The notes below the pieces were generated by a model, which saw nothing but the letters and a program-made list of their open reading frames with translations, was not told the origin of the DNA and did no database searches. Of a DNA stretch of 64,000 nucleotides, positions 23,189 to 62,078 are shown piece by piece. Position 1 is the first letter of the stretch. Every line of letters begins with the position of its first letter. Location of the stretch: contig JAJEDI010000092.1 in NCBI GenBank assembly GCA_022821585.1, forward strand, positions 1 through 64,000, read 5' to 3'. The stretch is from Caldilineaceae bacterium. Lineage in GTDB: Bacteria > Chloroflexota > Anaerolineae > Caldilineales > Caldilineaceae. Position numbers and translations under genes: made by a program.

Positions 23189-23220
23189 CCACTGACCACT
23201 ATCCACTGACCACTGCAGTT
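23189..23220 (+). repeat. Heptamer tract ending in ACTGCAGT
   Basis: Imperfect 7-bp tandem units of the CCACTGA type, ending with the palindrome ACTGCAGT at 23212-23219. It lies 217 bp before the aminotransferase start, farther away than most tracts in the window. Confidence 0.7.
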
Positions 23221-23436
23221 CACTCCCCCGGCAATCTTCAATCTTACTTGACGTGCTACGTTCTGCCAACTCGCTTCCCACTTCTGTCTACCGCTACAGT
23301 CCACCTTAGACAGAATCTGTCTCTGTCGGTTATCATTCGCAGTACCCTCCCGGTGATCCCTTCCGGCCTTCACAGCGCCCGAAAAAATCCCGCCGGGGGT
23401 CTTCTTTCCAACTCCATCCAGCTCAAGGCCCAGGCA

Positions 23437-24621
23437 ATGTCACGCATGACGGTTGAACAGCTTCGGCAGGACCTTCCCATGACCGCGGAGGTCGGATACT
23501 TTCAGACCGGGACCTACGGCCCCGCCAGCGACTCCGTGCTCCAGGCGGTGCGCGAGACGATGGAAACCGAGGCTCGCCACGGCCCCGCCACCCCCGCCGG
23601 CCGGCAGTCGCACATCGAACGCGAAGCCGCCGCCCGCAGCGGACTGGCTCGAATGCTCAACGTCCAGGAAGAGGAGCTCGGCATCGAGACCAACACATCC
23701 CGTGCCATGCAACAGATCGTACGCGGTCTCGACTGGCAGGAGGGCGATGAGTTCGTCATGACCTCGCTGGAACATGTCAGCACTTACGGGCTCTCCTATT
23801 CGCTCAAGCAGCTACACGGCGTGAAGACCATAGTTCTGGGCGAAGTGTACGACGAACATCTTCTCGGCGATCTCGCATCTGTGCTCACAGACCGCACCCG
23901 CCTGATCTGCCTCAGCCACATCGCCTCCCCCAATGGCCGTCTTCTCCCCTGCAAGCAGGCAGCCGCCATCGCCCACGACGCCGGCGTGCCCGTCATGCTC
24001 GATCTGGCCCAATCGGTCGGCCAGATGCCGGTAGACCTGAAGGAACTCGACTGCGATTTTGCCGTCGGTTCCGGCCACAAATGGCTGCTCGGCCCCATGG
24101 GCACCGGCTATATGTATATCTCGCAAGACCAGCTCCCCGAGTTCCACCCCAACTTCATTCCCGACCGCAGCCCCTGGTCGCTGCACGATGCCCCCACACC
24201 GGCGCCGACCGCCCGCTCCCGCACCGAAATTGGCACCTATAACCATGCCCTCGTCGTCGGCCTCGGCCGCGCCGTCGAGATCGTGGAAAGCATCGGCCTG
24301 GATACAATGCAGGAAAGAATTACCCAGCTCTCCGGCCGCCTGCGCCAGGGTGTCGGCCACATCGATCGCGCCCGCATCATCACTCCCCAGGAACCCGGAA
24401 AGTCCGCCGGCATCACCTCGCTGATGTTCGACGGCTTCAACAAGACCGACATGGACGGCCTCGTAGACAGGATGCACCAGCGCCATCAGACGGTCGTCAA
24501 ATCCCAATGGCTCACCGCCCCGCCCGACCCGGTCAAAGTCGCCATGCGCATCTCCGTCGCCGCCTTCAACGACGAGAGCGAAGTGGACCGCCTGCTGGAG
24601 GGCCTGGACGAAGAACTGTAA
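23437..24621 (+). CDS. Class V aminotransferase / cysteine desulfurase-like PLP enzyme
   Basis: About 394 residues from ATG 23437 (a second in-frame ATG is at 23446). The frame upstream has no family sequence. The PLP-binding segment is CDFAVGSGHKWLLGPMGTGYMYI near residue 205-225, where the Lys of SGHKW is the predicted Schiff-base residue. MLDLAQSVGQMPVDL supplies the ring-facing Asp. The C-terminus (VAMRISVAAFNDESEVDRLLEGL) is the usual small domain ending. Likely an aminotransferase or a selenocysteine/cysteine lyase-like enzyme; sequence alone does not settle which. It starts the plus-strand run that continues into two carbohydrate-related genes. Confidence 0.85.
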   Translation: MSRMTVEQLRQDLPMTAEVGYFQTGTYGPASDSVLQAVRETMETEARHGPATPAGRQSHIEREAAARSGLARMLNVQEEELGIETNTSRAMQQIVRGLDWQEGDEFVMTSLEHVSTYGLSYSLKQLHGVKTIVLGEVYDEHLLGDLASVLTDRTRLICLSHIASPNGRLLPCKQAAAIAHDAGVPVMLDLAQSVGQMPVDLKELDCDFAVGSGHKWLLGPMGTGYMYISQDQLPEFHPNFIPDRSPWSLHDAPTPAPTARSRTEIGTYNHALVVGLGRAVEIVESIGLDTMQERITQLSGRLRQGVGHIDRARIITPQEPGKSAGITSLMFDGFNKTDMDGLVDRMHQRHQTVVKSQWLTAPPDPVKVAMRISVAAFNDESEVDRLLEGLDEEL

Positions 24622-24684
24622 CCCCAGCGGCCGCCAACGCCGCCGCTTACGAGAAATAATCCAAGAATAAGAGGAAAAAGTAAG

Positions 24685-25773
24685 ATGCCTGAACGCCTGG
24701 TCCTCTGGGGACCGCCCGTAGTGGAGAGAATCCCCGACGATCCCGATTACGCCGACTTTCTGCCCGCCTGGGTGCAAAAATGCGCCGACGTAGGCGTCAC
24801 CAAAATCATCGGTGGAGACCGCACCCGCGCCCTGACCGAAGCCGCCCATGCCGTTGGCATTAAGGTCGATCCCTACATCAACTACAACTCCTTCCCCCGT
24901 CACGGCTGGGCGCGTGTCACCTACGGCTGGTCCCTCGACTTTCTGCGTCCTCCCGTTACCGCAGCCGAGGCCCGCGCCGTCATGGACAGCCATCGCCCCA
25001 TCTACGACGCCCCCAAAGTTACCACCACCATGACCGACTTCGCCGCCAAAAACCCGCAGTTCCGCAGCCTCACCCGCACCCGCTCCTACACCCTGCAGCC
25101 CGGCGACGATCTCTACCTCAGCGCCGCCTTCCCCGAAGTGCGCGCCGAGCAGACCGAGCAGTTCATTGACACGCTCGCCCACACCCAGGGCGACGGCATA
25201 CAGGTCGAGTTCGTGCTCGGAAACGAGGACGAGAATAGCGCCGTCCCCTACGGCTACGAAGACCGCACCGTCAACGAGTTCCAGGCCAAACACGGCAAAA
25301 ACCCGTTCGACCTGCCCAATGACGACCCCGAATGGCTGCAGTTCCGCGCCGACTACGTCACCCTCGCCCTGGCCGAGATGCGCGCCGCCGTCAAGCAGGC
25401 CAAGCCCGACGCCGTCTTCTCCACCACCCTCATCGCCGGCGAAAAAGAGGACTACCTCAAGCTCCTGCACGACTGGCCCGCCTGGCTCGAACAGGGCATC
25501 GTCGACGAGTTCTACATCTGGTTCCGCACCAACTCCGACCCCGACGCCCTCCGGCGGCAGTTCAGCTACGCTGTCGAAGTGGCCGCCGGCCGCACACCCG
25601 TCATCGCCGAACTCTCCTGTTACCATCCCGGCAGCTTCCAGCAGCCCGACCAGATGCTGCGCGCCGCCGAAGTCGCCATGGACTGCGGCGCCGACGGCGT
25701 CGGCATCTACCGCAGCCACGCCGTCGAGCAACTGGATTTCTGGCCGGTCCTGGAAAAGATGAGTAAGTTGTAG
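24685..25773 (+). CDS. GHL10/DUF187-like TIM-barrel protein
   Basis: A 362-residue protein without a signal peptide. The layout (GVTKIIGGDRTRALTEAAHAVGIKVDPYINYNSF, then GIQVEFVLGNEDENS, WLQFRADYVTLALAEMRAAVKQ, IVDEFYIWFRTNSDP) fits the glycoside-hydrolase-like 10 barrel, in which a WLQFRADYV-type helix follows a strand carrying acidic residues. The role would be hydrolysis or binding of a glycan. I am unsure of the assignment because the catalytic pair is not obvious. It has a ribosome binding site (AGAGGAAAAAG) and sits between a PLP enzyme and a polysaccharide deacetylase, all in one direction. Confidence 0.55.
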   Translation: MPERLVLWGPPVVERIPDDPDYADFLPAWVQKCADVGVTKIIGGDRTRALTEAAHAVGIKVDPYINYNSFPRHGWARVTYGWSLDFLRPPVTAAEARAVMDSHRPIYDAPKVTTTMTDFAAKNPQFRSLTRTRSYTLQPGDDLYLSAAFPEVRAEQTEQFIDTLAHTQGDGIQVEFVLGNEDENSAVPYGYEDRTVNEFQAKHGKNPFDLPNDDPEWLQFRADYVTLALAEMRAAVKQAKPDAVFSTTLIAGEKEDYLKLLHDWPAWLEQGIVDEFYIWFRTNSDPDALRRQFSYAVEVAAGRTPVIAELSCYHPGSFQQPDQMLRAAEVAMDCGADGVGIYRSHAVEQLDFWPVLEKMSKL

Positions 25774-25856
25774 AAGGGCGAAAGGTCTGGAACTTCGTTT
25801 CAGCGATCGTGAAGGTCCGCGCGCGACAAACTGATCGAATGAAAGAGAGGCACACC

Positions 25857-26726
25857 ATGTCCTATTACGTCGCCGCCTACGACACCGAAGGCGTATACCC
25901 CTGGTGGGATAAGAACCGGCGTCAAAGAGGTTTCAGCTACACCCCCGAACATATCGCCGAATTCCTGGACGGCGTGCGCGCCGTCGCCGACGTCCACCTG
26001 CAGCGCAACGCGCCCGCTTCCTTCTTCCTCGTCGCCAAAATGCTGGAGATCTGCGGCCCTGAACTGCGCGCCATTCTCGACAATCCCCTCTTCGATATCC
26101 AGTGCCACACCTTTACCCATCCCAACCTGAAAGAGCTGGGCGACGACAGAGCCGCCCTCCATTATGAATTGGGCGACGCCAAAAAACTGATCGAAGACAC
26201 CTTCGGCCGCGCGGTCAACGGCCTCACCGCGCCCGGTGGCTACACCGACGGCTTTCGCGGCCATCCTGCCGTTCTGGATGTCATGTGGGAGGCTGGCTAC
26301 CGCTACGTGCGCAGCGTCGGCATGGGACCAAATGGGACCTTCCCCGCCCTGCTCGATCAGCCTTTCTGGTATGCTGAGGATGGCTTCCCCGAACTCCTGG
26401 AAACGCCTTCGCATGCCTGGCACGACAACGTCCTCACCGGCCAGCCGGCTAAGGTGCACTGGCCGCCGCTCCTGCCCTGGCCCTATCCCACCGCAATGCC
26501 CCGCGACGCCCAGGGCGTCTACGAAGCCTACGCCCCCGGCATCGACTACTGCACGCAGCAGAACCTTCTTTACTACATGCCCATCTTCCACCCCTGGTCC
26601 ATCTACCGCATCGACCAACAGGCCGCCCAGATCGGCCTCCTGCTCGATCACGCCCGCCAGAAAATGGAGCTGACCTCCTGCAACCACATCTACCAGCACA
26701 TCCTCCGCCATCCGGAGCTTGTCTAA
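25857..26726 (+). CDS. Polysaccharide deacetylase (NodB/CE4) family
   Basis: About 289 residues from ATG 25857, with GAGAGG upstream at 25845-25850; an in-frame ATG at 25809 would add 16 unsupported residues. The CE4 fold motifs are YYVAAYDTEGVYPWWD (motif 1 with Asp), FDIQCHTFTHPNLKEL (motif 2, HxxxH metal ligands), and LTAPGGYTDGFRGHP (motif 3). The family removes N- or O-acetyl groups from glycans using a divalent metal; a subgroup acts on other amides. No signal peptide is evident, so a cytoplasmic substrate or export by an unknown route is implied. It follows the GHL10-like gene by 83 bp. Confidence 0.8.
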   Translation: MSYYVAAYDTEGVYPWWDKNRRQRGFSYTPEHIAEFLDGVRAVADVHLQRNAPASFFLVAKMLEICGPELRAILDNPLFDIQCHTFTHPNLKELGDDRAALHYELGDAKKLIEDTFGRAVNGLTAPGGYTDGFRGHPAVLDVMWEAGYRYVRSVGMGPNGTFPALLDQPFWYAEDGFPELLETPSHAWHDNVLTGQPAKVHWPPLLPWPYPTAMPRDAQGVYEAYAPGIDYCTQQNLLYYMPIFHPWSIYRIDQQAAQIGLLLDHARQKMELTSCNHIYQHILRHPELV

Positions 26727-26900
26727 ACCGTGATGTCTTGCCCTTTTTGTAGCGGCGCCTCAATTGTTCTCTTGCACATGAGTCGAAAAAGTGTCCGGTG
26801 AGCCTGTTCACCATGATCCAGATCTGCATCCTTCGCTAGGAGGTTCACGACACAGCCTTCGTCGTCAGCGAAGCGGGCAAGGCACCGCTTAGGAAATTCT

Positions 26901-27749
26901 ATGGCGGGTAGCGAAACACAAACGCGTAATTATTTCATAGATGAAGGTGGCGATAGCACACTGTTTTCCCGCAGAGGGAAGGTGCTGATTGGTTCGGAGG
27001 GCTGTTCTCGCTTTTTCATGCTCGGTTTGCTGGAAGTGTCTGACCTTTCGGTATTACATTCTTCATTAGGTGACCTGCGGGAACGGCTGATGACAGACCC
27101 GTATTTCAGCAACGTTCCATCAATGCAAGCAAGGGCGCGAAAAACAGCTCTCGCCTTTCATGCAAAAGATGATGTGCCGGAAGTGCGAAGAGAAGTTTTC
27201 CAGCTCCTGCGTGCTATGGACGAGTTGCGATTCTTTGCTGTAGTTGCTGACAAATGGCACGTGTTGCAATATGTTCGCCAGCGAAACGAAAGTGAGCCTG
27301 ATTATCGCTACCATCCCAATGAACTATATGACTTTCTCGTACGGCGTCTGTTCAAAGGGAAACTGCACAAGAGTAGTGGATTTCAAATCTTCTTTTCAAA
27401 ACGCGGCAAATCTGACCGCACCGCCGCCCTGCGTCAGGCACTTGAAACAACCAGGAGCCGCTTCGCCACACAATATAACTTGAAAAGCGAAGCCTCCCTG
27501 CAAGTTTCTGAAGCGCCCCCGAAGGAGCTGGCAGGCCTGCAAGCTGTGGACTATTTTGTCTGGGCGTTACAAAGACTCTATGAACGTCACGAAGAACGGT
27601 ATGTAACCTATCTGTGGCATGCCTTTCGGTTGGTGCAGGACGTTCACGACATACGCAAGGCCGGCTATGGCGTGTACTATACACAGAAAAAGCCACTCAA
27701 TGCGGCGGCACTTGAGTGGCGGCAAGAAAATAAAGAGCCAGGGATATAG
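26901..27749 (+). CDS. DUF3800 family protein
   Basis: A 282-residue protein starting MAGSETQTRNYFIDEGGDSTLF. The YFIDEGGD motif near residue 12 is the conserved DESG-D acidic start of DUF3800, a predicted RNase H-like nuclease fold. A later acidic residue in LAGLQAVDYFVWALQR near residue 214 fits the second active-site position of the family. Its base composition is clearly lower in GC than neighbouring genes and its codon use is more mixed, suggesting horizontal transfer. DUF3800 genes often occur in defence or mobile islands, but no restriction or phage gene is here. The 320-bp spacer downstream (27750-28069) is also AT-richer and shows no gene. Confidence 0.75.
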   Translation: MAGSETQTRNYFIDEGGDSTLFSRRGKVLIGSEGCSRFFMLGLLEVSDLSVLHSSLGDLRERLMTDPYFSNVPSMQARARKTALAFHAKDDVPEVRREVFQLLRAMDELRFFAVVADKWHVLQYVRQRNESEPDYRYHPNELYDFLVRRLFKGKLHKSSGFQIFFSKRGKSDRTAALRQALETTRSRFATQYNLKSEASLQVSEAPPKELAGLQAVDYFVWALQRLYERHEERYVTYLWHAFRLVQDVHDIRKAGYGVYYTQKKPLNAAALEWRQENKEPGI

Positions 27750-28069
27750 GATTGAGCGAACCGCGGCTCGACAATCACACGGCTTGGAGCCGAATTTCAT
27801 CCACTGGCTGTATGGCACAATATATCTGATTACTTCGGTATCCGCAAATTCGAGTTTCTCCAAGCATCTACCGTACGTTCCATTCACGACTAGTAAGAGG
27901 GTTCCAAAGAGTCTGTAACGCTGGCAGTTCCGCCTCTATCGATCAACTGACCATGTGCGTACCTGTCCCTGTGTTGATTTCGCAAATGACATCTTGCGAC
28001 GAAACTTTGCACAATCAAGGACATATGTCCCAAACCAAGACCCGCCAGCACTCGTGAGCACTCGAACAC

Positions 28070-29128: not shown

Positions 29129-29195
29129 CAGAAGCGACGCGTGGAATCTTCCCGTTATTCGCTCTCCTTCTCTCTCCGTCATAAAGGAGTTTCGT

Positions 29196-30071: not shown

Positions 30072-30125
30072 CCCGCAGAACCGCTAGGCCGCCCTGACCC
30101 ACAAAAAGCCCGCGGCCCCAGCAAC

Positions 30126-30152
30126 ACACAATACGAAATACGCAATACGCAA
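30126..30152 (+). repeat. Heptamer tract, ATACGCA family
   Basis: ATACG recurs with a 7-bp period (units such as ATACGAA and ATACGCA), ending 24 bp before the ATG of the next gene. No Shine-Dalgarno sequence lies between. Confidence 0.65.
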
Positions 30153-30175
30153 CAGAGCCTCAGGACGACCCCACC

Positions 30176-30994: not shown

Positions 30995-31060
30995 CCGGCG
31001 GACCGTCACAGCCACGACCACCGCAGCGATCAGATTGGAGGCGCGCCGCCAGTGCGACGT

Positions 31061-31088
31061 TTGACACAACACAATTTCTCCGTAAAAT
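31061..31088 (+). promoter_or_regulatory. Strong sigma-70 promoter for the SBP operon
   Basis: TTGACA (31061-31066) and TAAAAT (31083-31088) are separated by 16 bp. This is the best promoter match in the window and gives a ~155-nt leader before the binding-protein start. Confidence 0.65.
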
Positions 31089-31249
31089 GGAGTCGTTCCC
31101 ATTACGTCCGCTCTTCCCAAAGAGTGCAATGGAACCTTATCGTCCTTGGCACGGGGCTTCCTGTCCGCCAGACCGGAAGCACATGCAACCCCGCCAATCC
31201 CTCATCCGCGTTTCATACATCATCACACGTAGCAAAGGAGACCCAGAGT

Positions 31250-32851: not shown

Positions 32852-32892
32852 CGGGTTGAGCAAACACTGCCCGCAAGGGCTTGTGAACTGAA

Positions 32893-32953
32893 TGCGTACC
32901 GCGTATTGCGCCCCGTCCCGCCCAAACGGTGACACCGCAATACGTGGTACGCA
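32893..32953 (+). terminator. Large hairpin between binding protein and permease
   Basis: Arms 32893-32910 and 32936-32953 pair at 17 of 18 positions around a 25-nt loop; the arms are made of CGCAATACG-type units. Such hairpins after a binding-protein gene often protect its mRNA or attenuate the downstream permeases. Confidence 0.6.
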
Positions 32954-38744: not shown

Positions 38745-38778
38745 CCACGCAATACACAATACGGATTGCGTACCGCAG
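38745..38778 (+). repeat. Heptamer tract, ATACGCA family
   Basis: Units such as AATACAC, AATACGG and TTGCGTA recur with a 7-bp period between the two permease genes, ending with CCGCAGT, 14 bp before the ATG. No strong Shine-Dalgarno sequence follows. Confidence 0.6.
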
Positions 38779-38791
38779 TCAGGATCCCGGC

Positions 38792-39737: not shown

Positions 39738-40817
39738 ATGACCGTCGCAGCCCCAATGAACCGCATGTCCGCAAATAAAAACACAGAAGATGACAGGACC
39801 GATTTTGATGTGATCGTGGTCGGTTGTGGGGGATGGGGGCTGGCGGTGCTCAAAGTGCTCAGCGACATGGGCCTCCGCGTACTCGGCATCGAACGCCGCG
39901 AGATCTGTCACAATCTCCGCCGCTACATGAAGCACATGGTGATGCACTCGGTTCTCTCCTATATGATTCTGGATCCGGAGGATGCGATCGTGGCCCGAAA
40001 AGGCGACGAATACCATCCACTGATCGAGGAGCTCATCCAGAGTTACAGCGATTTCGCGCAGAAATTCAATCTCCCCATCAGGACCCACCAGGAACTCGTC
40101 GATATTGAAGGCGCAAAGGATAATTTTGTGTTGGCAGTTCGCGACAAAGAGGGTCGTGCTTTACGGCTGAAAGCCAGACGGGTCGTGCTGGCAACAGGCT
40201 CCTACGACGAGCCAAATCTGGCCGGCATTCCCGGCGAGTCGAACGGCTCAGTACAACACTACTTCCACGAATGGGAACACATCAAGGACCAAAGAATCCT
40301 CTTCATCGGTGGCGGCTTCTCTTCCGCCGACGGCATTATCGCCCTCTGCCCCCGCAACCAGATCCTATGGGTCGTGCGCAAATCGGACGACGCGGTCGAG
40401 AAGATGCTGACCGACCAGAAAACGGTCTGGGGGCAGCCCGATGCACACCTCGTCAACACCGAAATCCTGACCGACAGCCAGGTCACCTCGCTGGAAAACA
40501 ACACCGCAGTCGTGCAAACACCTGGCGGCCGGCAGACGTGGGATTTCGATCTTTGTTACATGCTCATCGGCCATAAGCCAAACCAAAGTCTGTGCACACG
40601 CCTCCTGAACGGAAACCTGGATTTCGATGAAGAAACCTTCGAATCCTGCGAGCGCCCGGGCGTCTATCTCGTCGGCGCGCTCGCCAAGAAACACCTGGAG
40701 CATATCGGCTTGACGCACAACCTCTGTCCTGACAACGACGGAGTGCGCTACATCGAACGCATCCGCTCCGCCATGCAGCAGGAGTTCAACTGCGTCATTA
40801 AATCAGCTGACCACTAA
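39738..40817 (+). CDS. FAD/NAD(P)-dependent oxidoreductase (thioredoxin reductase-like fold)
   Basis: A 359-residue flavoprotein. The FAD-binding start DFDVIVVGCGGWGLAVLKVLSDMGLRVLGIER is a GxGxxG-like dinucleotide motif (here GCGGWG). VVLATGSYDEPN near residue 154 is the second FAD motif, and ILFIGGGFSSADGI near residue 188 is the NAD(P)-binding fingerprint. FDLCYMLIGHKPNQ near 275 matches the late family motif. No redox CxxC is visible, so it is not a classic thioredoxin reductase; it resembles YpdA-like and lysine/ornithine monooxygenase-like relatives. The last codons and stop lie inside a heptamer tract that precedes the next gene. Confidence 0.75.
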   Translation: MTVAAPMNRMSANKNTEDDRTDFDVIVVGCGGWGLAVLKVLSDMGLRVLGIERREICHNLRRYMKHMVMHSVLSYMILDPEDAIVARKGDEYHPLIEELIQSYSDFAQKFNLPIRTHQELVDIEGAKDNFVLAVRDKEGRALRLKARRVVLATGSYDEPNLAGIPGESNGSVQHYFHEWEHIKDQRILFIGGGFSSADGIIALCPRNQILWVVRKSDDAVEKMLTDQKTVWGQPDAHLVNTEILTDSQVTSLENNTAVVQTPGGRQTWDFDLCYMLIGHKPNQSLCTRLLNGNLDFDEETFESCERPGVYLVGALAKKHLEHIGLTHNLCPDNDGVRYIERIRSAMQQEFNCVIKSADH

Positions 40818-40834
40818 CTACTGACCACTGGTGT
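40805..40834 (+). repeat. Heptamer tract overlapping a stop and abutting the next start
   Basis: Units of the CTGACCA, CTAACTA and CTGACCA types. The tract encodes the last residues and the TAA of the upstream flavoprotein. It ends GACCACTGGTGTTCC, followed after one base by the ATG of the next gene. No Shine-Dalgarno sequence is present. Confidence 0.7.
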
Positions 40835-42526: not shown

Positions 42527-43990
42527 ATGAGTAGCCAGCGCAAAACCGTCCGTCCCCGCATCGGCATCTTCGGCATCGGCCTCGGTGAGTACTGGCCCCA
42601 GTTCCCAGGCCTGAAGGAGCAGCTCGAAGGCTATCAGGCCCGCGTGGAAAGCCGCGTCGGCCAGTGGGCCGATGTCGTCAGCGCCGGTCTCGTCGACTCC
42701 GCCCCAGGCGGGCGCGACGCTGGAGACCTTTTCCAGCGCGAGCAGGTCGACATGGTCTTCTGCTACGTCGGCACCTACGCCACCAGCTCAACCGTCCTGC
42801 CCGTCGTCCAGATCCCCAAAGTCCCCGTTCTCGTCCTCAATCTCCAACCCTCCGCCGCCCTCGACTACGCCAATACCGACACCAAGGAGTGGCTCGCAAA
42901 CTGCTGCGCCTGCTGCGTGCCCGAGCTCAGCTCCGTCTTCCACCGCTGCGACATCGATTTCCACGTCGTCTCCGGCATGTTGGACGAAGAAGAAGGCTGC
43001 GAGGAACCGGCCCGCCGCGCCTGGGCCGAAATCCAGGACTGGACCGAGGCTGCCGGCGCGCTCCGTACCCTGCGCCGCAGCCGCATGGGTGTCCTCGGCC
43101 ACACCTACCCCGGCATGCTCGACATGTACAGCGACTTCACCCAGCACCATGGCCAGCTCGGCACCCACATCGAGATTCTCGAAATGTGCGATCTGGCGCA
43201 GATGGTCAACGGCGTCACCCCCGCCGCCATCAAAGCCAAGGAAGAAGAGGCCCTCGCCATCTTTGACCTCGCCGAGGACTCCCCCTCCGATCCGCTCGCA
43301 ACCCGCCCCGCCCCCGAGGCCCTCGACTGGGCCTACCGTGTCGCTGTCGGCCTCGACCGCCTCGTCGCCGACTTCGACCTCGACGGCCTCACCTACTACT
43401 ATCGCGGCCTCGACGACAATGAATACGAACAGATCGCAGCCGGCTTCGCCCTGGGCTGTTCCCTGCTCACCGCACGCGGCGTGCCCTGTAGCGGCGAAGG
43501 CGACCTCAAGAACTGCCAGGTAATGAAAATCGTCGACACCTTCGGCGCCGGCGGCAGCTACTCCGAGGTCACCGCCATGGACTTCCGCGAAGAGTTCATC
43601 CTCGCCGGCCACGACGGCCCTTTCCACATCGACATCGCCCAAGGCCGGCCCCTCCTGCGCGGCCTCGCCCTCTACCACGGCAAACACGGCGGCGGCGTCG
43701 GCGTCGAAACCCAGGTCAAGCACGGCCCCGTCACCGTCCTCTCCATGACCCAGACCCGCCAGGGCAATCTCAAGCTCCTCGCCGCCCAGGCCCAAAGCAT
43801 ACCCGGCCCCGTCCTCCAGATCGGCAACACCGACAGCCGCCTCAAATTCTCGCTCGGCCCCGCCGACTTCATCAACGCCTGGTGCAAAGAGGGCCCCACC
43901 CACCACTTCGCCCTCGGCGTAGGCCACATCCTGCCCAAGATAGAAAAATTCGCCAGCATCGCCAACCTCGAACTCAAAGTAGTCTGCTAA
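42527..43990 (+). CDS. L-fucose/L-arabinose isomerase-like protein
   Basis: A 487-residue protein with the N-terminal GIFGIGLGEYWPQFPGLKEQLEGY typical of arabinose-isomerase-like proteins, followed by VDMVFCYVGTYATSSTVLPVVQ. Candidate catalytic acids lie in GLTYYYRGLDDNEYE and CSGEGDLKNC (the conserved Glu), and the C-terminus has HYFALGVGH-like HHFALGVGHILPKIEKF. This fold interconverts aldoses and ketoses using Mn2+. The gene is coupled by 26 bp to a corrinoid carrier, an odd partner for an isomerase, so it may not act as a plain arabinose isomerase. The spacer downstream carries a REP-like element. Confidence 0.8.
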   Translation: MSSQRKTVRPRIGIFGIGLGEYWPQFPGLKEQLEGYQARVESRVGQWADVVSAGLVDSAPGGRDAGDLFQREQVDMVFCYVGTYATSSTVLPVVQIPKVPVLVLNLQPSAALDYANTDTKEWLANCCACCVPELSSVFHRCDIDFHVVSGMLDEEEGCEEPARRAWAEIQDWTEAAGALRTLRRSRMGVLGHTYPGMLDMYSDFTQHHGQLGTHIEILEMCDLAQMVNGVTPAAIKAKEEEALAIFDLAEDSPSDPLATRPAPEALDWAYRVAVGLDRLVADFDLDGLTYYYRGLDDNEYEQIAAGFALGCSLLTARGVPCSGEGDLKNCQVMKIVDTFGAGGSYSEVTAMDFREEFILAGHDGPFHIDIAQGRPLLRGLALYHGKHGGGVGVETQVKHGPVTVLSMTQTRQGNLKLLAAQAQSIPGPVLQIGNTDSRLKFSLGPADFINAWCKEGPTHHFALGVGHILPKIEKFASIANLELKVVC

Positions 43991-44016
43991 GTCCTTGCCA
44001 AATGGCGCTCATGATT

Positions 44017-44133
44017 CAGAGAGAGAAGAGTTTTCTCTTTCCTCTCTCCTCTACCCTCTCTCCTCGCATTTGGGCGGTCGGGCCTATTCGGCCCTCCCTT
44101 GTGCGGGGGCCCCGCCCCCGCAACGCCCCCTCT
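44017..44133 (+). repeat. REP-like multi-hairpin element, copy 2
   Basis: The same element as at 22998-23106. Its core 44056-44133 matches the first copy except for two inserted bases in the GGGCC loop and one base in the second hairpin loop. Preceding it are an AGAGAA-type inverted repeat and pyrimidine heptamers. The rest of the gap 43991-44408 shows no gene. Confidence 0.7.
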
Positions 44134-44408
44134 CCTAAAACCCCCGCCGCAGCGAGTGTGTGGCAATATGACCTTGACGACCCGCTGCGACCGAACTTTC
44201 CCCCACCCCGCGTCGTGGCTCGTTCCGAATGCGAGCCGGCGCAGGCGAGGCAACGCCCAATCAGGCCCAACCTACACCGCGATGACCATCAAGAGCCCGC
44301 TATAGAAATCCCGATAGTACAATCCTTCATTCCGGGTCCAGGCGACCGCACATTGCACACTCTTATAGAACATCGCATAGTAGTTATCTGAAAGCCACAA
44401 AACTTCCA

Positions 44409-47138: not shown

Positions 47139-47183
47139 CAACTAACCACTGACTACCAACTACCAACTACTGACTACTGCAGT
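47139..47183 (+). repeat. Heptamer tract ending in ACTGCAGT
   Basis: Six heptamers of the types CTAACCA, CTGACTA and CCAACTA, then the palindrome ACTGCAGT at 47176-47183. AAAGGAG (47186-47192) follows, then the start at 47200. Confidence 0.75.
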
Positions 47184-50066: not shown

Positions 50067-50090
50067 GCCACTGACCACTGACTACTGACC
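50067..50090 (+). repeat. Heptamer tract abutting the MR/MLE start
   Basis: Units of CCACTGA and CTACTGA type end 3 bp before the ATG at 50094. No Shine-Dalgarno sequence is present. Confidence 0.7.
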
Positions 50091-50093
50091 TCC

Positions 50094-52857: not shown

Positions 52858-52889
52858 GCCGCCCGACACCACCGGAATTAGGATTTTCT

Positions 52890-52927
52890 CTGACCACTGA
52901 CCACTGACAACCGACCACTGGTGTTCC
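52890..52927 (+). repeat. Heptamer tract abutting the GH105-like start
   Basis: Five units of the CTGACCA type, ending GACCACTGGTGTTCC immediately before ATG 52928. The same ending precedes the gene at 40839. No Shine-Dalgarno sequence is present. Confidence 0.75.
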
Positions 52928-54628: not shown

Positions 54629-54650
54629 TATCGCAAATGGAAACTCTAGT

Positions 54651-54718
54651 GGCCACTGGCCACTGACCACTGACCACTAACCACTGACCACTGATCACTG
54701 ACCACTGCAGTAAGGAGG
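54651..54718 (+). repeat. Eight-heptamer tract with ACTGCAGT and ribosome binding site
   Basis: Eight units of the form GRCCACT (variants AACCACT and GATCACT) at 54651-54706, then the palindrome ACTGCAGT (54704-54711) and AAGGAGG (54712-54718), five bases before the ATG of DUF1800. Confidence 0.85.
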
Positions 54719-54723
54719 TAGAT

Positions 54724-56127: not shown

Positions 56128-56173
56128 CCTGCAGTCTTTAGCAACACCGTCCCGCATATCCAGCCGGAAGGTG

Positions 56174-56225
56174 TTCACTAAAAACTGAAAACTGAAAACT
56201 GAAAACTGTAGTCAAAAACTGCAGT
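56174..56225 (+). repeat. Heptamer tract, AAAACTG family
   Basis: TTCACTA then four AAAACTG units (56174-56208), a near-palindrome ACTGTAGT and then ACTGCAGT (56218-56225). It precedes the chimeric fragment start at 56243. The homologous tract at 57934 has the same unit number but different bases. Confidence 0.8.
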
Positions 56226-56242
56226 TAAGCAAGGAAGTAAAG

Positions 56243-56416
56243 ATGGTCGCCCACAAAAAAGACCCCGCCCTCGTCGACGTCTGCACCGGCACCGGCGTCC
56301 AGCAAAGCACCCGCGACTACCTCGACCGCCCCGCCATATTCGGCCCCGACGAACGCGGCGGCGCCCTATCAATCTGGTTCGTCACCGATATGGAGACCTT
56401 TCTCCAAGAGAATTGA
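56243..56416 (+). pseudogene. Chimeric fragment: DUF1501 start joined to GH105-like tail
   Basis: A 57-codon open frame made by the tandem duplication. Its first eight codons (MVAHKKDP) match the DUF1501 start MVDHKKDP at 58003, and it then continues in frame into the C-terminus of the GH105-like protein (LVDVCTGTGVQQSTRDYLDR to the stop). It keeps a ribosome binding site (AAGGAAG) and could still be translated. It is not expected to have the activity of either parent. Confidence 0.85.
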
Positions 56417-56438
56417 TATCGTAGTCGGGAATTTGAGT

Positions 56439-56478
56439 GGCCACTGATCACTGATCACTGACCACTGCAGTAAGGAGG
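56439..56478 (+). repeat. Four-heptamer tract (copy of the tract at 54651)
   Basis: Four units, GGCCACT, GATCACT twice and GACCACT (56439-56466), then ACTGCAGT (56464-56471) and AAGGAGG (56472-56478). It is homologous to the eight-unit tract at 54651 but exactly four units shorter. Confidence 0.85.
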
Positions 56479-56483
56479 TAGAT

Positions 56484-57887
56484 ATGGCAGATGAGGATCT
56501 GGGCCTGATGGCTCATTTGCTGCGCCGGGCAGGCTTCGGCGCCAGCCGCGAAGAGCTCGAGGCCTACGCCGCAAAAGGCTATGACGAAGTCGTAGAAGAT
56601 CTGGTGGACGAGGAGCGCTGCCCGCCGATCGACGAGGATATCATCAAGCGCTACTTTGGCGGTGAAGGGCCGGATTTCCGCTCCGGCGCCTGGATCTACC
56701 GCATGATCAACAGCCCGCGCCCGCTCGAAGAAAAGATGGCTCTCTTCTGTCATCACGTCTTCGCCACCGGCTTCGCCAAGGTCGCGCACGCCCTCGCCAT
56801 GAGCGACCAGATCGATCTCTTCCGCCGCATCGGCATGAGCAACATACGCGAGATTCTGCTCGAGCTCTCCATGAACCCGGCCATGATCAACTGGCTCGAC
56901 AACAACGAGAACATCAAGGGCGAACCCAACGAGAACTACGGCCGCGAGCTGCTCGAACTCTTCTCAATGGGCGTCGGCAACTACACCGAGGACGACATCA
57001 AGAACTGCGCGCTCGCCTTCACCGGCTGGACCTACGCGCAACCCGTCCCCCTCTATCCCCACGGCTACTACTCTCCCGAATTCCTGTTCCGCCCGGAGGA
57101 CCACGACTACGGCGAGAAGACCTTCCTCGGCCACACCGGCAACTTCAACGGCGATGATATCATCGACATCATCGTCGAGCAGCCGGCAACCGCCCGCTTT
57201 ATCTCCCGCCATCTCTACAACTTCTTCGTCGCCGACGAGCCCCAGGTCCCCTCCTGGAACGTGACGCCGCCGCAGGACCCGGAAGCGATCGAAATCCTCT
57301 CGGACGCCTTCATGGAGTCGAAAGGCGACATGCGCCACGTCCTGCGCACGCTCTTCAAGAGCGACTTCTTCAAGGCGGCCCGCTTCAAAAGGGTGAAAAG
57401 CCCTGCCGAACTGATCGCCGGCGTCCTCAAGCTGGTCGGCACCTATCGCACGCCCACCCCCGGCATGCCCCGCTACCACCGCGCCGCCAAACTGATGGGC
57501 CAGGAGCTCTTCAACCCGCCCACAGTCGAAGGCTGGCACACCGGCCAGGAGTGGATCGACGGCGGCATGCTCACCGAGCGCATCAACTTCGCCGTCGACG
57601 AAGTGAGCGACGCCAGCAAGCCGGGTATCCAGGCCCTCATCAAGCGCCTGCGCGCCGCCGGCGACAGCCTCACCCCCGAGCAGTTCGTCGACACCTGCCT
57701 CGACCTCGCCGGCCCCGTGACCCTGGAAGACAAGACCCGCGCCGACCTCATACGCTTCGCCCAGAGCGGCGGCGACCTCGTTTTCTCCAGCAACGGCAGC
57801 GCCAATGGCGAAACCGACGAAAGCACCGACCGCATCATCCTGATGCTCCAACTAATCGTCGCCTCCCGCGAATACCAATTCGCCTGA
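56484..57887 (+). CDS. DUF1800 family protein, copy 2
   Basis: A second 467-residue DUF1800 protein with no indel relative to copy 1. The differences I count include Trp to Cys in ALFCHHVF, GE to VA in FAKVAHALAM, and conservative changes in the C-terminal half such as RFKRVKSPAELIAGV. Frame and length are kept, and most differences are conservative, so it is probably under selection and functional. It shares the ribosome binding site AAGGAGG and a shortened heptamer tract. It stands directly before DUF1501, in the arrangement usual for the pair. Confidence 0.9.
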   Translation: MADEDLGLMAHLLRRAGFGASREELEAYAAKGYDEVVEDLVDEERCPPIDEDIIKRYFGGEGPDFRSGAWIYRMINSPRPLEEKMALFCHHVFATGFAKVAHALAMSDQIDLFRRIGMSNIREILLELSMNPAMINWLDNNENIKGEPNENYGRELLELFSMGVGNYTEDDIKNCALAFTGWTYAQPVPLYPHGYYSPEFLFRPEDHDYGEKTFLGHTGNFNGDDIIDIIVEQPATARFISRHLYNFFVADEPQVPSWNVTPPQDPEAIEILSDAFMESKGDMRHVLRTLFKSDFFKAARFKRVKSPAELIAGVLKLVGTYRTPTPGMPRYHRAAKLMGQELFNPPTVEGWHTGQEWIDGGMLTERINFAVDEVSDASKPGIQALIKRLRAAGDSLTPEQFVDTCLDLAGPVTLEDKTRADLIRFAQSGGDLVFSSNGSANGETDESTDRIILMLQLIVASREYQFA

Positions 57888-57933
57888 CCTGCAGCTCTTA
57901 GCAACACCACCCCGCCTATACAGCGGAAAGGTG

Positions 57934-57985
57934 TTCACTAAAAACTAAAAACCAAAAACTAGAAACTGCAGTCAAAAACTGCAGT
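57934..57985 (+). repeat. Heptamer tract, AAAACTA family, with two ACTGCAGT
   Basis: TTCACTA followed by AAAACTA, AAAACCA, AAAACTA and GAAACTG (57934-57968), with palindromes ACTGCAGT at 57965-57972 and 57978-57985. It lies 17 bp before the DUF1501 start. Confidence 0.8.
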
Positions 57986-58002
57986 ACAGAAAGGAAACAA
58001 AG

Positions 58003-59136
58003 ATGGTTGACCACAAAAAAGACCCCGTACTCGTTGTCGTACAACTCAGCGGCGGCAACGACTTCATGAACACCGTCGTCCCCTATACCGCCGGCATCTA
58101 CTACGACTCCCGGCCGGTCGTGGGCCTCAAAGAGGACGAAGTCCTGCCCATTCACGATACCCTTGCCTGGAACCCGAACTGCGAGCCCCTCCAGCAGATG
58201 TACGAGGCCGGCGACATCGCAGTCGTACAGGGCATCGGCTACCCCAACTCCAACCGCTCCCACTTCCGCGCCATGGACATCTGGCACACCTGCGAACCGA
58301 TCGAGATCGGCACCGAAGGCTGGGTCGGACGCATGATCCGCGAGCTCGACCCCGGCGGCCACAACGTCCTCACCGGCGTCAACGTCGGCCAGGGCCTGCC
58401 CAGAGCCATGGCCGTGCCCGGCGTGCCCGTCACCTCCTTCGCCGACCTCGACACTTACGGCCTGCTCACCGGCATCGACGAACCCCGCCGCCGCACCCAG
58501 GCGCTTGAGGTCTTCAAAGGCATGTACGGCCACGAAGTCGGCGCCGGCTACGTCATGGACTACCTCTCTCAGACCGGCCTCAACGTCATCCAGGGCACCG
58601 ACGAGCTCAAGAAAGCCAAAGAAGGTTACAGTTCGACCGTGGAGTATGGCGACAGTGCCATCGCCAACAGCCTGCGCGACGTCGCCCGCGTCCATCTCGC
58701 CGGGCTCGGCACCCGCGTCTTCTACACCGCCCAGGGCGGCTATGACAACCATGCCAACGAGGTCCCCGACCATCCCAAGCTGCTCGCCGACCTCAGCACA
58801 GCCATCACCGCCTTCTTCGAGGACCTGCGCGCTCACAACGCCTCCTCAGAAGTGACGATGCTGGTCTTCACCGAGTTCGGCCGCCGCATCCGCGACAACG
58901 CCAGCGGCACCGACCACGGCTCCGGCGGCGGCGCCTTCATCATCGGCGACCGCGTCCAGGGCGGCCTCTACGCCCAATACCCCTCCCTCGACCCCGCCCG
59001 CTGGGTCCACGGCGAGGACATGGAACACACTATCGACTTCCGCGGCATCTACGGCACCGTACTCGAACAGTGGATGGGCATCGATCCCACCCAAATCGTC
59101 AACGGCCATTTCGAGCAAATCTACCCATACAGCTAA
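58003..59136 (+). CDS. DUF1501 family protein
   Basis: A 377-residue DUF1501 protein, related to the sulfatase/alkaline phosphatase superfamily. It begins PVLVVVQLSGGNDFMNTVVPY, the typical LxGGxD start. HTCEPIEIGTEGWVGRMIREL, GYDNHANEVPDHPKLLADLSTA and MLVFTEFGRRIRDNASGTDHGSGGGAFIIGDRVQGGLY are the family motifs, the last carrying the predicted metal ligands (TDHG). There is no signal peptide, whereas many homologues have a Tat signal. It is the partner of the DUF1800 genes upstream. The role of the pair is unknown. AGAAAGGAAAC precedes ATG 58003. Confidence 0.9.
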   Translation: MVDHKKDPVLVVVQLSGGNDFMNTVVPYTAGIYYDSRPVVGLKEDEVLPIHDTLAWNPNCEPLQQMYEAGDIAVVQGIGYPNSNRSHFRAMDIWHTCEPIEIGTEGWVGRMIRELDPGGHNVLTGVNVGQGLPRAMAVPGVPVTSFADLDTYGLLTGIDEPRRRTQALEVFKGMYGHEVGAGYVMDYLSQTGLNVIQGTDELKKAKEGYSSTVEYGDSAIANSLRDVARVHLAGLGTRVFYTAQGGYDNHANEVPDHPKLLADLSTAITAFFEDLRAHNASSEVTMLVFTEFGRRIRDNASGTDHGSGGGAFIIGDRVQGGLYAQYPSLDPARWVHGEDMEHTIDFRGIYGTVLEQWMGIDPTQIVNGHFEQIYPYS

Positions 59137-59170
59137 AATCTCTCAGCAAATTGAGAGCAAAATGGGTTTT

Positions 59171-59200
59171 ACCAAAAACTAAAAACTAGCAACCAAAAAC
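59171..59200 (+). repeat. Heptamer tract, CCAAAAA/CTAAAAA family
   Basis: Units CCAAAAA, CTAAAAA, CTAGCAA and CCAAAAA in a 7-bp period, followed by AAAAGGAG and the GTG start at 59219. Confidence 0.65.
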
Positions 59201-59218
59201 TCAAAAAGGAGTTCCACC

Positions 59219-60229
59219 GTGGGCAGACCATACGGTCTCTTACGCGCCGGCTTTCCCTTCCACAAGACGCTGGGAATGCGGCGGCTGACCAACTATCCCA
59301 TCGACCTCGCCTTAGGCAAGGAGGACCGCCTCTTCATCCTCTGCCGCAGCGAGGGCACCGCGCTCATCCGCAAGTACAGCACCGAGGATGCGGACCTCGG
59401 CTCCATCGGCATCTACGGCGACGAGCCGGGCCAGGTCACCTGGCCGGTCACCATCCTCGCCGACGCCGACGAGAACCTCTACCTCACCGATGAGGCGCTC
59501 CACCGCGTCACCATCATCGACAGCGAGGGCGAGCTGATCGACAGCTGGGGCGAAGAGGGCAGCGGGCCCGGCCAGCTCAACGGCCCCGCCGGCATGACCT
59601 TCGACGCCGAGGGCAACCTCTACGTCGTCGATTCCCTCAACCACCGCGTCCAGAAGTTCACCCGCGAGGGCGGCCTCCTCGGCGGCTGGGGCAGCTACGG
59701 CTGCGGTGAGGGCGAGTTCAACATGCCTTGGGGCATCGCCGTTGACGAACTGGGCGACGTCTACGTCGCCGACTGGCGCAACGACCGCGTCCAGAAGTTC
59801 AGCGCCGACGGCGAATTCAAGATGGCCTTCGGGACCTCCGGCTGCGGCGACAGTGAGTTCAACCGCCCCAGCGGCGTCGACGTCGACCGCCACGGCGACA
59901 TCTACGTCGTCGACCGCGGCAACAACCGCGTCCAACTCTTCAACGAAGAGGGCCGCTACGTGCAGCAGTTCATCGGCGACGCCACCCTCTCCAAGGTGGC
60001 CATCTCCTACATGATGACCAACGCCTACCCCAACCGCCTGCGCGACATGGCCAAGCTCGAAATTCAGAAGCTCCTGCGCTGGCCGCAGTCCGTCGTCGTC
60101 AGCGAAGACGGACTCATGTACGTGCCCGACACCGGCTCCTACCGCGTCCAGGTCTACAGAAAGGAGGCCGTCGAGCTCAACGAGCTCCAATTCGCGCCCC
60201 CCCGCCGCGCGCCGGCCCTCAACATATAG
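59219..60229 (+). CDS. NHL-repeat beta-propeller protein
   Basis: A 336-residue protein from GTG 59219, AAGGAG upstream. It consists of NHL repeats: VTWPVTILADADENLYLTDEALHRVTII, LNGPAGMTFDAEGNLYVVDSLNHRVQKF, FNMPWGIAVDELGDVYVADWRNDRVQKF, FNRPSGVDVDRHGDIYVVDRGNNRVQLF and a last SVVVSEDGLMYVPDTGSYRVQVY. Each has the NLYVxDxxNHRVQ core. About five to six blades close a propeller. No signal peptide is visible. Such proteins often serve as scaffolds or bind polysaccharides or proteins. It directly follows the DUF1501 gene and may belong to the same unit. Confidence 0.85.
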   Translation: MGRPYGLLRAGFPFHKTLGMRRLTNYPIDLALGKEDRLFILCRSEGTALIRKYSTEDADLGSIGIYGDEPGQVTWPVTILADADENLYLTDEALHRVTIIDSEGELIDSWGEEGSGPGQLNGPAGMTFDAEGNLYVVDSLNHRVQKFTREGGLLGGWGSYGCGEGEFNMPWGIAVDELGDVYVADWRNDRVQKFSADGEFKMAFGTSGCGDSEFNRPSGVDVDRHGDIYVVDRGNNRVQLFNEEGRYVQQFIGDATLSKVAISYMMTNAYPNRLRDMAKLEIQKLLRWPQSVVVSEDGLMYVPDTGSYRVQVYRKEAVELNELQFAPPRRAPALNI

Positions 60230-60316
60230 CTCTCAACGTTCACCGCAGCCAAAGCCAAATAGAGGCCGCACAAATTAACCGCGCCCGCAACAAGGCCGAT
60301 CAACCCGATTCCCCCT

Positions 60317-60348
60317 CTGACCACTAACCACTGACTACTGACCACTGC
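60317..60348 (+). repeat. Heptamer tract before the ThDP enzyme
   Basis: Units CTGACCA, CTAACCA and CTGACTA then CTGCCGT, 22 bp before the ATG at 60370. No Shine-Dalgarno sequence follows; CCGCAGTT is repeated instead. Confidence 0.7.
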
Positions 60349-60369
60349 CGTTCCGCAGTTCCGCAGCCT

Positions 60370-62004
60370 ATGACCACCATCCGTACCGGCGGCGAAGCGC
60401 TTGTCCACGGCCTTCTCTCCCACGGCATCGACACGATTTTCGGCCTGCCCGGCGTGCAGAACGACCACTTCTACAACGCCGTCTACGATGCCGGCGACCG
60501 GATACGCGCCATCCATACCCGCCATGAGCAGGGCGCAGCCTACATGGCCCTCGGCTACGCGCTCGCCTCCGGCAAAACAGGCGTCTATGTCGTCGTCCCC
60601 GGCCCCGGATTCCTCAACACCACCGCCGCGCTCGCAACCGCCTACGCCACAAATGCGCCTGTCCTCTGCCTCGCCGGCCAGATCCACCAGGACCAGATCG
60701 GCCGCGGCTACGGAATGTTGCACGAGATCCCTGATCAGCTGACAGTTATGCGTACGCTGACCAAGTGGGCGCGCCGCGCCGAAAGCCCCGCCGAGCTCCC
60801 GCAACTATTGGCAACGGCGCTCAGCGAAATGCGTTCAGGCCGCCCCCGGCCCGTCGGGCTGGAGACGCCGATAAACGTGCTCGCCGCCAAGGCAGAGATG
60901 AGCGATAGTCCCCTCCCCCTCACCGTGCGCCGGCCAGCGTTAGACACCGACACCGTCGAAGAGGCAGCCCGGCTCATGGGTGCGGCACGCAACCCGGTCA
61001 TATTCGTCGGTGGCGGCGCCATGCACGCCGGCGAAGAGGTCCGCGCCGTGGCCGAAGCCCTCCAGGCCCCAGTCATCGCCAGCGGTCGCGGGCGCGGCAT
61101 CCTCTCCAGCCGCCATCCATTCAGCCACACCTTCGCAGCCGGCGAACCCCTCTGGGAACAGGCCGACCTGGCCGTCGCCATCGGCACACGACTGACCAAG
61201 CCCTTAATCGATTGGAAGAGCCCGGACCATCTGTCCCTGATCCGCATCGAAATCGCGCCGCAGGATTCAAGCTTCTTGGCCCCTGCAGCCGTGACAATCG
61301 CGGCCGACAGCAAGGATGCCCTGCGTGCTCTGCTCCCGCTCCTGGCGCGCCACAACCGCCGGCGCCCTTCCCGCACCGCCGAAATGCTTGCCTTGCACAG
61401 GGACATGGAGGATCTATTCGACTCCCTCCAACCCCAGATCGACTTCATTCGCGCCATCCGCGACGCCCTGCCCGATGACGGCATCTTCGTTGATGAGCTA
61501 ACGCAGATCGGCTACGCCAGCAACATAGCCATGCCCGTCTACCAGCCCCGCACATTCCTCACCCCCAACTATCAGGGCACGCTCGGCTGGGGCTTCCCCA
61601 CCGCGCTCGGCGCCAAAGTAGCCGCCCCCGACCGCTCGGTCCTCTCCATCGCCGGTGACGGCGGCTTCCTCTACTGTGCAATGGAATTGGCCACCGCCGT
61701 GCAGCACGGCATCAACACCGTTGCCGTCGTCTTCAACGACGGCGCCTACGGCAACGTGCGCCGCATGCAGAAGGAGCTCTACGCCGGCCGCATCATCTCC
61801 TCAGACCTCGTAAATCCCGACTTCGTCGCCTTCGTCGAGTCCTTCGGCGCCATAGGCGTCCGCGTACACTCCGCCAACAGTCTCCGCGACGCCCTCACCG
61901 ACGCCTTCGCGGCCGACCGGCCCGTCGTGATCGAAGTCCCCGTCGGCGAGATGCCCGGCCCCTGGCGCATGATGTACCCCAACGAGCTACTGGTCGAAGA
62001 GTGA
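60370..62004 (+). CDS. Thiamine diphosphate-dependent enzyme (acetolactate synthase-like)
   Basis: A 544-residue enzyme with the three-domain ThDP layout. The catalytic Glu is in AIHTRHEQGAAYMALGYA near residue 54. VVPGPGFLNTTAALATAYATNAPVLCLAGQ is typical of the Pyr domain. The central domain has MGAARNPVIFVGGGAMHAG. The PP domain carries the ThDP motif GDGGFLYCAMELATAVQHGINTVAVVFNDGAYGNVRR near residue 432 (GDG...NDG). It could condense or decarboxylate a 2-oxo acid derived from sugar-acid breakdown; acetolactate synthase itself is usually paired with a small subunit, absent here. No FAD-specific feature can be assigned. Specific substrate unknown. Confidence 0.86.
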   Translation: MTTIRTGGEALVHGLLSHGIDTIFGLPGVQNDHFYNAVYDAGDRIRAIHTRHEQGAAYMALGYALASGKTGVYVVVPGPGFLNTTAALATAYATNAPVLCLAGQIHQDQIGRGYGMLHEIPDQLTVMRTLTKWARRAESPAELPQLLATALSEMRSGRPRPVGLETPINVLAAKAEMSDSPLPLTVRRPALDTDTVEEAARLMGAARNPVIFVGGGAMHAGEEVRAVAEALQAPVIASGRGRGILSSRHPFSHTFAAGEPLWEQADLAVAIGTRLTKPLIDWKSPDHLSLIRIEIAPQDSSFLAPAAVTIAADSKDALRALLPLLARHNRRRPSRTAEMLALHRDMEDLFDSLQPQIDFIRAIRDALPDDGIFVDELTQIGYASNIAMPVYQPRTFLTPNYQGTLGWGFPTALGAKVAAPDRSVLSIAGDGGFLYCAMELATAVQHGINTVAVVFNDGAYGNVRRMQKELYAGRIISSDLVNPDFVAFVESFGAIGVRVHSANSLRDALTDAFAADRPVVIEVPVGEMPGPWRMMYPNELLVEE

Positions 62005-62052
62005 CCTCCCCAACCCCCTCTCAACACCTCCCAACTGCCCCCTCCGGCAACC

Positions 62053-62078
62053 CACCACTGACCACGAACCACTGCAGT
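62053..62078 (+). repeat. Heptamer tract ending in ACTGCAGT
   Basis: Units CCACTGA and CCACGAA, then ACTGCAGT at 62071-62078. It lies after the ThDP gene and not directly before a gene, possibly because the gene that followed was lost or replaced. Confidence 0.6.

Follow-up and report, generated by a model that had tools for sequence, protein, structure and literature searches.

The window, a stretch of 64,000 nucleotides from a Caldilineaceae bacterium (positions 1 to 64,000 of contig JAJEDI010000092.1, assembly GCA_022821585.1), has short arrays of imperfect tandem 7-bp units in the spacers between its genes. The nearest named relatives of this organism are metagenome-assembled genomes of Caldilineaceae, in the Chloroflexota. 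The units of these heptamer tracts fall into four families (ACTRAYY, AAAACTR, CTCTCCT and ATACGCA), and two of the tracts are followed by an element reminiscent of repetitive extragenic palindromic (REP) sequences (Table 1). Many of the tracts stand just ahead of a gene; nevertheless, their direction follows the chromosome strand and not the neighboring gene.

Period-7 tracts in the window and beyond

A first-pass annotation had listed 14 heptamer sites. Tandem Repeats Finder (TRF, score of at least 30) called 11 of these (at 23189, 30121, 47148/47152, 50068, 52890, 54653, 56177, 56442, 57937, 59174 and 60317), whereas those at 38745, 40805 and 62053, with units visible by eye, are too imperfect to reach the threshold; TRF also called the two CTCTCCT tracts, which had been overlooked. 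The families had been described as unrelated, but ACTRAYY and AAAACTR both contain ACTR, which CTCTCCT and ATACGCA lack. The palindrome in which many tracts were said to end, ACTGCAGT, is present at seven of the 14 sites.

Table 1. Heptamer tracts and associated elements of the window, with the basis of each assignment.
Position	Strand	Feature	Basis
23017..23040	+	CTCTCCT-family tract, linked via GCATTT to REP-like element	TRF, scan
23047..23101	+	REP-like element, three-way-junction fold	z -3.1 and -2.0 on two strands (at 23041)
23189..23215	+	ACTRAYY tract with end ACTGCAGTT	TRF
30122..30152	+	ATACGCA-family tract, ATG 30176 23 nt downstream	TRF, scan
38745..38780	+	Weak ATACACA/ATACGGA-like stretch ahead of ATG 38792	By eye; below detection thresholds
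40805..40831	+	Imperfect ACTRAYY tract, overlaps stop of 39756-40817, ahead of ATG 40839	By eye; below thresholds
43984..44400	+	Dispersed repeat of ~400 bp holding CTCTCCT tract and REP-like element	Sequence comparison with relatives
44031..44065	+	CTCTCCT-family tract	TRF, scan
44072..44128	+	REP-like element, three-way-junction fold	Core pattern, folding
47141..47179	+	ACTRAYY tract with end ACTGCAGTT	TRF, scan
50068..50090	+	ACTRAYY tract directly ahead of ATG 50094	TRF, scan
52890..52920	+	ACTRAYY tract directly ahead of ATG 52928	TRF, scan, relatives
54650..54707	+	ACTRAYY tract, ~8 units	TRF, scan, relatives
56177..56208	+	AAAACTR-family tract	TRF, scan, relatives
56442..56467	+	ACTRAYY tract ahead of ATG 56484	TRF, scan, relatives
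57937..57967	+	AAAACTR-family tract ahead of ATG 58003	TRF, scan, relatives
59174..59206	+	AAAACTR-family tract ahead of GTG 59219	TRF, relatives
60314..60347	+	ACTRAYY tract ahead of ATG 60370	TRF, scan, relatives
62053..62079	+	Imperfect ACTRAYY tract with ACTGCAGTT, no clear downstream gene	By eye; below thresholds

The period of seven is real and specific. A lag-match scan of 406 kb of the same genome (the window and 19 further stretches, several from contigs with tracts already known) found 19 tracts of period 7, every one mostly noncoding; for periods 4, 5, 6, 8, 9, 10, 11 and 12 the counts were 0, 0, 0, 0, 1, 4, 0 and 3, and order-2 Markov controls gave 0 to 0.3. Stretches of two further genomes picked by contig number alone (G318 and G342) hold 4 and 15 tracts of period 7, and no more than three of any other period.

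A larger set of tracts came from a genus sample of 1.93 Mb, in which just six of 125 family-assigned tracts lie inside called coding sequence (CDS). The commonest number of units is four in every family (32 of 82 ACTRAYY, 10 of 25 AAAACTR, four of eight CTCTCCT and two of four ATACGCA tracts), a mode to be read with the trimming of short arrays by the detection threshold. At the other extreme, contig C11 of the genome of the window ends just past a long array (132745-132929 of 132980), and assemblies may therefore break at tracts, with the effect that long ones are undercounted.

Orientation of tracts along the chromosome

Orientation within the genome of the window was assessed using a tract-end pattern, ACYNACNACTGCAGTT, with 97 matches; 23 contigs contain at least two separate loci. 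On 21 of the 23 contigs tract orientation is uniform. None of 200,000 shuffles reached this number (the best attained 18), and the exceptions are contigs C42 and C53 (inverted pair 160 bp apart).

On the complete chromosome OY282376.1 (G347) orientation flips at two places half a chromosome apart. Among the matches listed (67 of 78), 43 of 45 plus and all 22 minus matches lie in the expected half; the two misplaced plus matches fall at 4.008 and 4.071 Mb, with reversed skew in the 4.00-4.02 Mb sample. Evenly spaced 20-kb samples, together with finer ones, place the changes in the sign of the GC skew at ~0.07 and ~2.73 Mb. Reversed-skew samples at 4.0 and 4.9 Mb hold plus ACTRAYY tracts; at 4.9 Mb there is in addition one AAAACTR tract of opposite orientation. 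In 40 samples from G347 and a second complete genome, OX638330.1 (G346), 63 of 69 family-assigned tracts agree with the local skew. Most of the six that disagree lie near a switch or in weak skew; the one at 3.43 Mb in G346 is a clear exception.

The same bias is evident across the genus sample, where 119 tracts have both neighboring genes in view: the C-rich strand carries the unit in 111. With near-duplicates removed, 104 of 112 tracts agree with the sign of the skew (ACTRAYY 72/75, AAAACTR 22/25, CTCTCCT 6/8, ATACGCA 4/4; by genome, 52/54 in that of the window, 40/45 in G347, 10/11 in G346 and 1/1 in each of two others). A model based on composition alone expects 55-85% agreement, depending on unit and seed length. 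Coding direction does not account for the skew sign in the sampled stretches, and tracts antisense to both neighbors lie on the C-rich strand in 23 of 26 cases. The orientation of the heptamers follows the chromosome strand, not the neighboring gene.

Array counts also increase with the magnitude of GC skew (Spearman 0.75 over 16 genomes), a correlation that concerns one orthologous locus, one unit family and non-independent genomes; against the trend, G311, G308 and G306 (15 to 18 matches) have a skew magnitude of ~0.10 and G315 (40 matches) one of 0.15. At 1.516 Mb in G347 (L141, ~15960-16400) six tract ends recur at a spacing of mostly 95 bp, which is a larger, tract-containing unit repeated in tandem.

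Position of tracts relative to genes

That tracts end close to start codons, as the first-pass annotation proposed, is largely true of the window: among the 11 TRF-supported sites, the distance from tract end to a called start is at most 25 nt in seven and at most 35 nt in 10, the tract at 23189 being the exception. This proximity is largely a consequence of the window genes there running in the same direction as the tracts. Over the genus sample the start rule is only partial. No more than 45 nt separate the 3' end from a sense start in 34 tracts and from an antisense stop in 14; in a further 37 the 3' end precedes a REP-like element (a short-pattern match in the next 40 nt), together 85 of 119. 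Of the 82 REP-free tracts, 48 have a CDS border at most 45 nt from the 3' end, and the border is nearer to the 3' than to the 5' end in 63 (62 of 79 with near-duplicates removed). The 5' end comes within 45 nt of a border in 21 of the 82; all are sense stops and none is an antisense start. On the C-rich strand the 3' end is often joined to the CDS border or REP-like element via GCAGTT or GCATTT.

These data bear on the possibility that the tracts are elements of the 5' untranslated region (5'-UTR), leader repeats bound by S1, a cold-shock protein or some other RNA-binding protein that controls translation. The proximity to starts in the window is what such a role would predict; a comparable role has been suggested for TAACTGA repeats in Beggiatoaceae (MacGregor 2015, PMC4679880, in the sections covered here), and start-adjacent tracts are retained in relatives, sometimes as nearly the whole spacer. 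Tract density is also highest in spacers whose two flanking genes are both sense (0.49 per kb of spacer, compared to 0.32 in divergent, 0.31 in antisense and 0.24 in convergent spacers), so that the tracts may also act on leaders in a secondary way. However, a leader element cannot explain the doubly antisense tracts, whose orientation tracks the skew; 14 tracts adjoin antisense stops, and all eight of these antisense genes that we checked in the genome of the window carry a Pfam domain (cytochrome P450, argininosuccinate synthase and gamma-glutamyltranspeptidase, for example); 37 tracts are followed by a REP-like element; and the four families have no single motif in common. We consider a 5'-UTR function unlikely as the common cause. 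One co-directional region is insufficient grounds for calling such tracts 5'-UTR elements.

A role in providing stop codons was also considered: ACTRA holds TGA or TAA, and a period of seven places stops in each of the three frames. Three antisense genes do take a TAG stop from a tract (L065 5009, L068 11083 and L103 9580). As a general cause this was rejected because ATACGCA and CTCTCCT units have no stop in that direction.

Turnover of tracts among relatives

At six starts of the window (52928, 54724, 56484, 58003, 59219 and 60370) both the tract and its unit family are retained in nearly all relatives in which both flanks could be placed (three to seven of seven per site). The tract at 52890 occupies almost the entire spacer of 27-34 nt in four relatives (L002, L003, L004 and L006), and the AAAACTR tract at 57937 is found in seven of seven. 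Array lengths at orthologous sites frequently differ by multiples of seven. The spacer before 54724 measures 53, 60, 67 and 81 nt in four relatives with shorter tracts and 95 nt in the window, all differences being multiples of seven; before 58003 the differences are not all multiples of seven. Approximately one unit is left of the 60370 tract in L003, and in L019 (~2750-3960) an insert of ~1.2 kb interrupts the tract before the NHL-repeat gene, the counterpart of the 59174 tract. Elsewhere in the genus a 110-bp array is absent in G346, an array and its REP are absent in G347, and at one site the unit family differs.

REP-like element and dispersed repeat

The 60 nt that follow the tract at REP-like sites are strongly structured (mean -15.8 kcal/mol, n = 37). 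The core of the element, GGGCGGTCGGGC, is itself oriented: 28 of 31 matches in G347 lie on the strand expected for their half. In the sample from the genome of the window 53 sites match the core with up to one mismatch, of which 17 are within called genes and 40 agree with the skew; by eye some 36 copies are genuine, and 34 of these agree. Nearly all genuine copies have an ACTRAYY, CTCTCCT or CCCCTRA tract close on their 5' side, the family differing from copy to copy; the tract is weak or absent at L061 9164 and L100 15639. The spacer that holds the ~400-bp repeat of the window could be placed in 12 relatives, and in 10 of them it lacks the repeat; the contigs of G310 and G307 terminate within the repeat.

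Recurrence of tract plus REP-like element as a dispersed repeat of ~100 to 400 bp, its absence from most placed relatives and its strand orientation would all be expected of a mobile element (REP/RAYT, IS200/605 or MITE-like) that enters single-stranded DNA at the fork, with the heptamer array as its tail. Yet the Y1 transposase domain PF01797 was matched in none of the 13 genus genomes examined, that of the window included; 82 of 119 tracts lack a REP-like element; the same element stands behind different unit families, and once (L189, in G317) has no tract at all. Filled and empty spacers are too divergent for clean ends or a target duplication to show. Such an element is a very improbable source of the tracts.

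Distribution among genomes

A further pattern, ACYRACYACTRACYACT, has 381 matches in the genome of the window and its reversed control none. It occurs in all 17 genomes of the genus, with 6 to 618 matches each, and as a single match in one of 29 other genomes of the order. Across the phylum 17 of 301 genomes have it; more than 10 matches are found only in G169 besides the genome of the window.

This distribution is relevant to the idea that orientation is itself selected, the tracts being putative polarity signals for a segregation or repair motor (like KOPS, Chi or AIMS). Near-complete strand orientation, dispersal over the whole chromosome and the oriented REP-like core fit that idea, but orientation is common to families that have no one motif in common, sites turn over among species, and match numbers span 6 to 618 within one genus. 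We regard such a signal as improbable.

The reversed control pattern, a different heptamer, abounds in two genomes of another genus, G342 and G343. Inverted pairs of arrays are frequent in stretches of G342 and G169. These pairs (L080, L083 and L091-L095), composed of other units, could form long intergenic hairpins, and some adjoin both CDS borders; similar inverted heptamer pairs are reported from Xanthomonas (Rehm et al. 2015, PMC4692102, in the part covered).

Strand-coupled slippage as a probable origin of the arrays

The first-pass annotation had left a choice between a generation mechanism and a 5'-UTR function, and had named period and position, rather than sequence, as the common factor. 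Period and spacer location are indeed common to the families; so are the strand and a 3' end that tends to adjoin a border. Together these features favor slippage coupled to one strand of the fork. Four families of like period, location and strand, length steps of seven nucleotides and exchanges of family at one site all support the side of generation, and it is unlikely that one binding site underlies them all, because the four families have no single common motif (two share ACTR). We therefore favor, with a probability of roughly 0.6, the reading of the tracts as intergenic heptamer simple-sequence repeats that take their direction from the chromosome strand and probably arose by strand-coupled slippage of seven nucleotides. 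The nascent strand would slip at replication forks, and would do so differently on the two strands; the resulting arrays may extend up to a border guarded by selection or by DNA structure. Effects on translation or transcription, if any, would be secondary and local.

Several observations weigh against this interpretation. The agreement expected from composition alone is as high as 85% for AAAACTR and CTCTCCT, and the strand lock of CTCTCCT and ATACGCA is based on eight and four tracts. No lock could be demonstrated in G320, a complete genome of weak skew (three of six testable matches agree; 23 of 29 are ambiguous), and the lock accordingly rests on three genomes, that of the window, G347 and G346. 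As many as 34 of 119 tracts end clear of any border or REP-like element, and a constant GCAGTT joint is unexpected under free slippage. Tracts that abut a CDS have no extra hairpin downstream compared to controls (p 0.25 and 0.99), and a strand-asymmetric hairpin is present in ACTRAYY only, where 38 of 55 tracts are more stable on the G-rich strand. Nor did marks of an origin turn up at the switches: dnaA, rpoC and one rRNA operon of G347, which are mixed in orientation, stand ~0.3 Mb away from one of the skew switches; no cluster of DnaA boxes was found in the 100 and 120 kb around the two G347 switches or in 3.2 kb around dnaA; and no origin gene was among 10 proteins tested per switch.

Some of these same data dispose of particular causes. 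Polymerase stalling at a downstream hairpin was rejected because CDS-abutting tracts do not differ from controls, though the REP-like element is strongly structured; a strand-asymmetric hairpin in the repeat itself was rejected as a general cause because the other families have none. The match to the unit falls from 6.4 to 5.9 of 7 across three units in the 3' to 5' direction, a trend confounded by array length that we do not use as evidence.

The indicators of the leading strand conflict. Genes prefer the C-rich strand (595 versus 423), whereas rpoC occupies the G-rich strand in both complete genomes, being plus in regions with minus tracts; rRNA operons are mixed. A cluster of dnaA, rpoC and an rRNA operon lies ~0.3 Mb from a switch in both genomes (5.15-5.22 Mb in G347, 4.83-4.87 Mb in G346). 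Being off the switch, and having no DnaA boxes in the 3.2 kb around dnaA, it indicates that the usual rules would misplace the origin here. An idea based on primase trinucleotides (CTG/CTA on the lagging template) was dropped because of this conflict over the leading strand.

Comparison with known heptamer repeats

Heptamer repeats beside open reading frames (ORFs) are already known, and according to the introduction of MacGregor (2015, PMC4679880), citing Mrazek et al. 2007, heptanucleotides outnumber every other category of repeat in the majority of genomes. What we judge to be new is a strand lock across several unit families; a literature search, which covered few subscription papers, found no report of a strand-locked heptamer repeat. 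The comparisons that follow draw on those sections of each paper that the search covered.

G-rich heptamers, GGGAATC in Xanthomonas and GGGGA(C/T)T in Nostoc, are described by Rehm et al. (2015, PMC4692102). The 5' side of their G-rich strand adjoins an ORF whatever its direction (in xanthomonads at a mean of 28 nt, compared to 160 nt on the other side), some overlap stop codons, and quadruplex formation is reported. The tracts described here resemble these repeats in period, in being mostly intergenic, in the four-unit mode and in positional polarity (the 62 of 79 REP-free tracts given above). They differ in having several unit families, in their coupling to a REP-like element and in the strong strand lock, the Xanthomonas heptamers being reported to have no preference for leading or lagging strand. 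None of the 56 tracts from the genome of the window has the four GGG runs that a quadruplex would require. As both the four-unit mode and the polarity occur here without G runs, quadruplex formation is an unlikely general reason for either.

MacGregor (2015, PMC4679880) describes TAACTGA direct repeats from Beggiatoaceae, cyanobacteria and Bacteroidetes, which are likewise heptamer arrays, often sense and near start codons, with 7-nt indels between strains (Cyanothece) and a scattered phylogeny. They have a single unit, whereas none of the four families here is TAACTGA; their habit of lying sense and just before a start is seen in most tracts of the window and in 34 of the 82 REP-free tracts of the genus sample. 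Eight Microcystis sets between stop codons have one chromosomal orientation, whose genome-wide validity that paper poses as a question; its covered sections contain no genome-wide test of replication strand that we could find. The tandem repeats of Borgs, which are linear archaeal elements, are built from perfect units whose lengths vary and differ from seven, and about half lie within ORFs (PMC9879509), unlike the imperfect spacer arrays of period 7 seen here.

Earlier interpretations of heptamer repeats by bacterial genes took them for translation signals or quadruplex switches. A direction predicted by chromosome strand, together with the same polarity rule in the absence of G runs, points to a common, replication-linked origin, and such an origin makes the preference for a seven-nucleotide unit testable. 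Tentatively, and with the odds against it, the reading could be widened: a strand-specific process linked to the fork may write heptamers of several sequences into the spacers of one template strand, halting where it meets a gene border or a folded REP-like element, and the same process without the lock may underlie the repeats of Xanthomonas, Nostoc and Beggiatoaceae, with quadruplexes or leader functions as by-products.

Other features of the window

No Pfam match at 1e-5 was obtained for the ORF at 62135, which follows the tract at 62053. The sole Rfam match of the window at gathering score is a selenocysteine tRNA (13748-13842, minus strand). Between 54724 and 57887 are two DUF1800 genes with a short ORF in between; their leaders are near-identical, a similarity suggesting that a tandem duplication copied the tracts as well.

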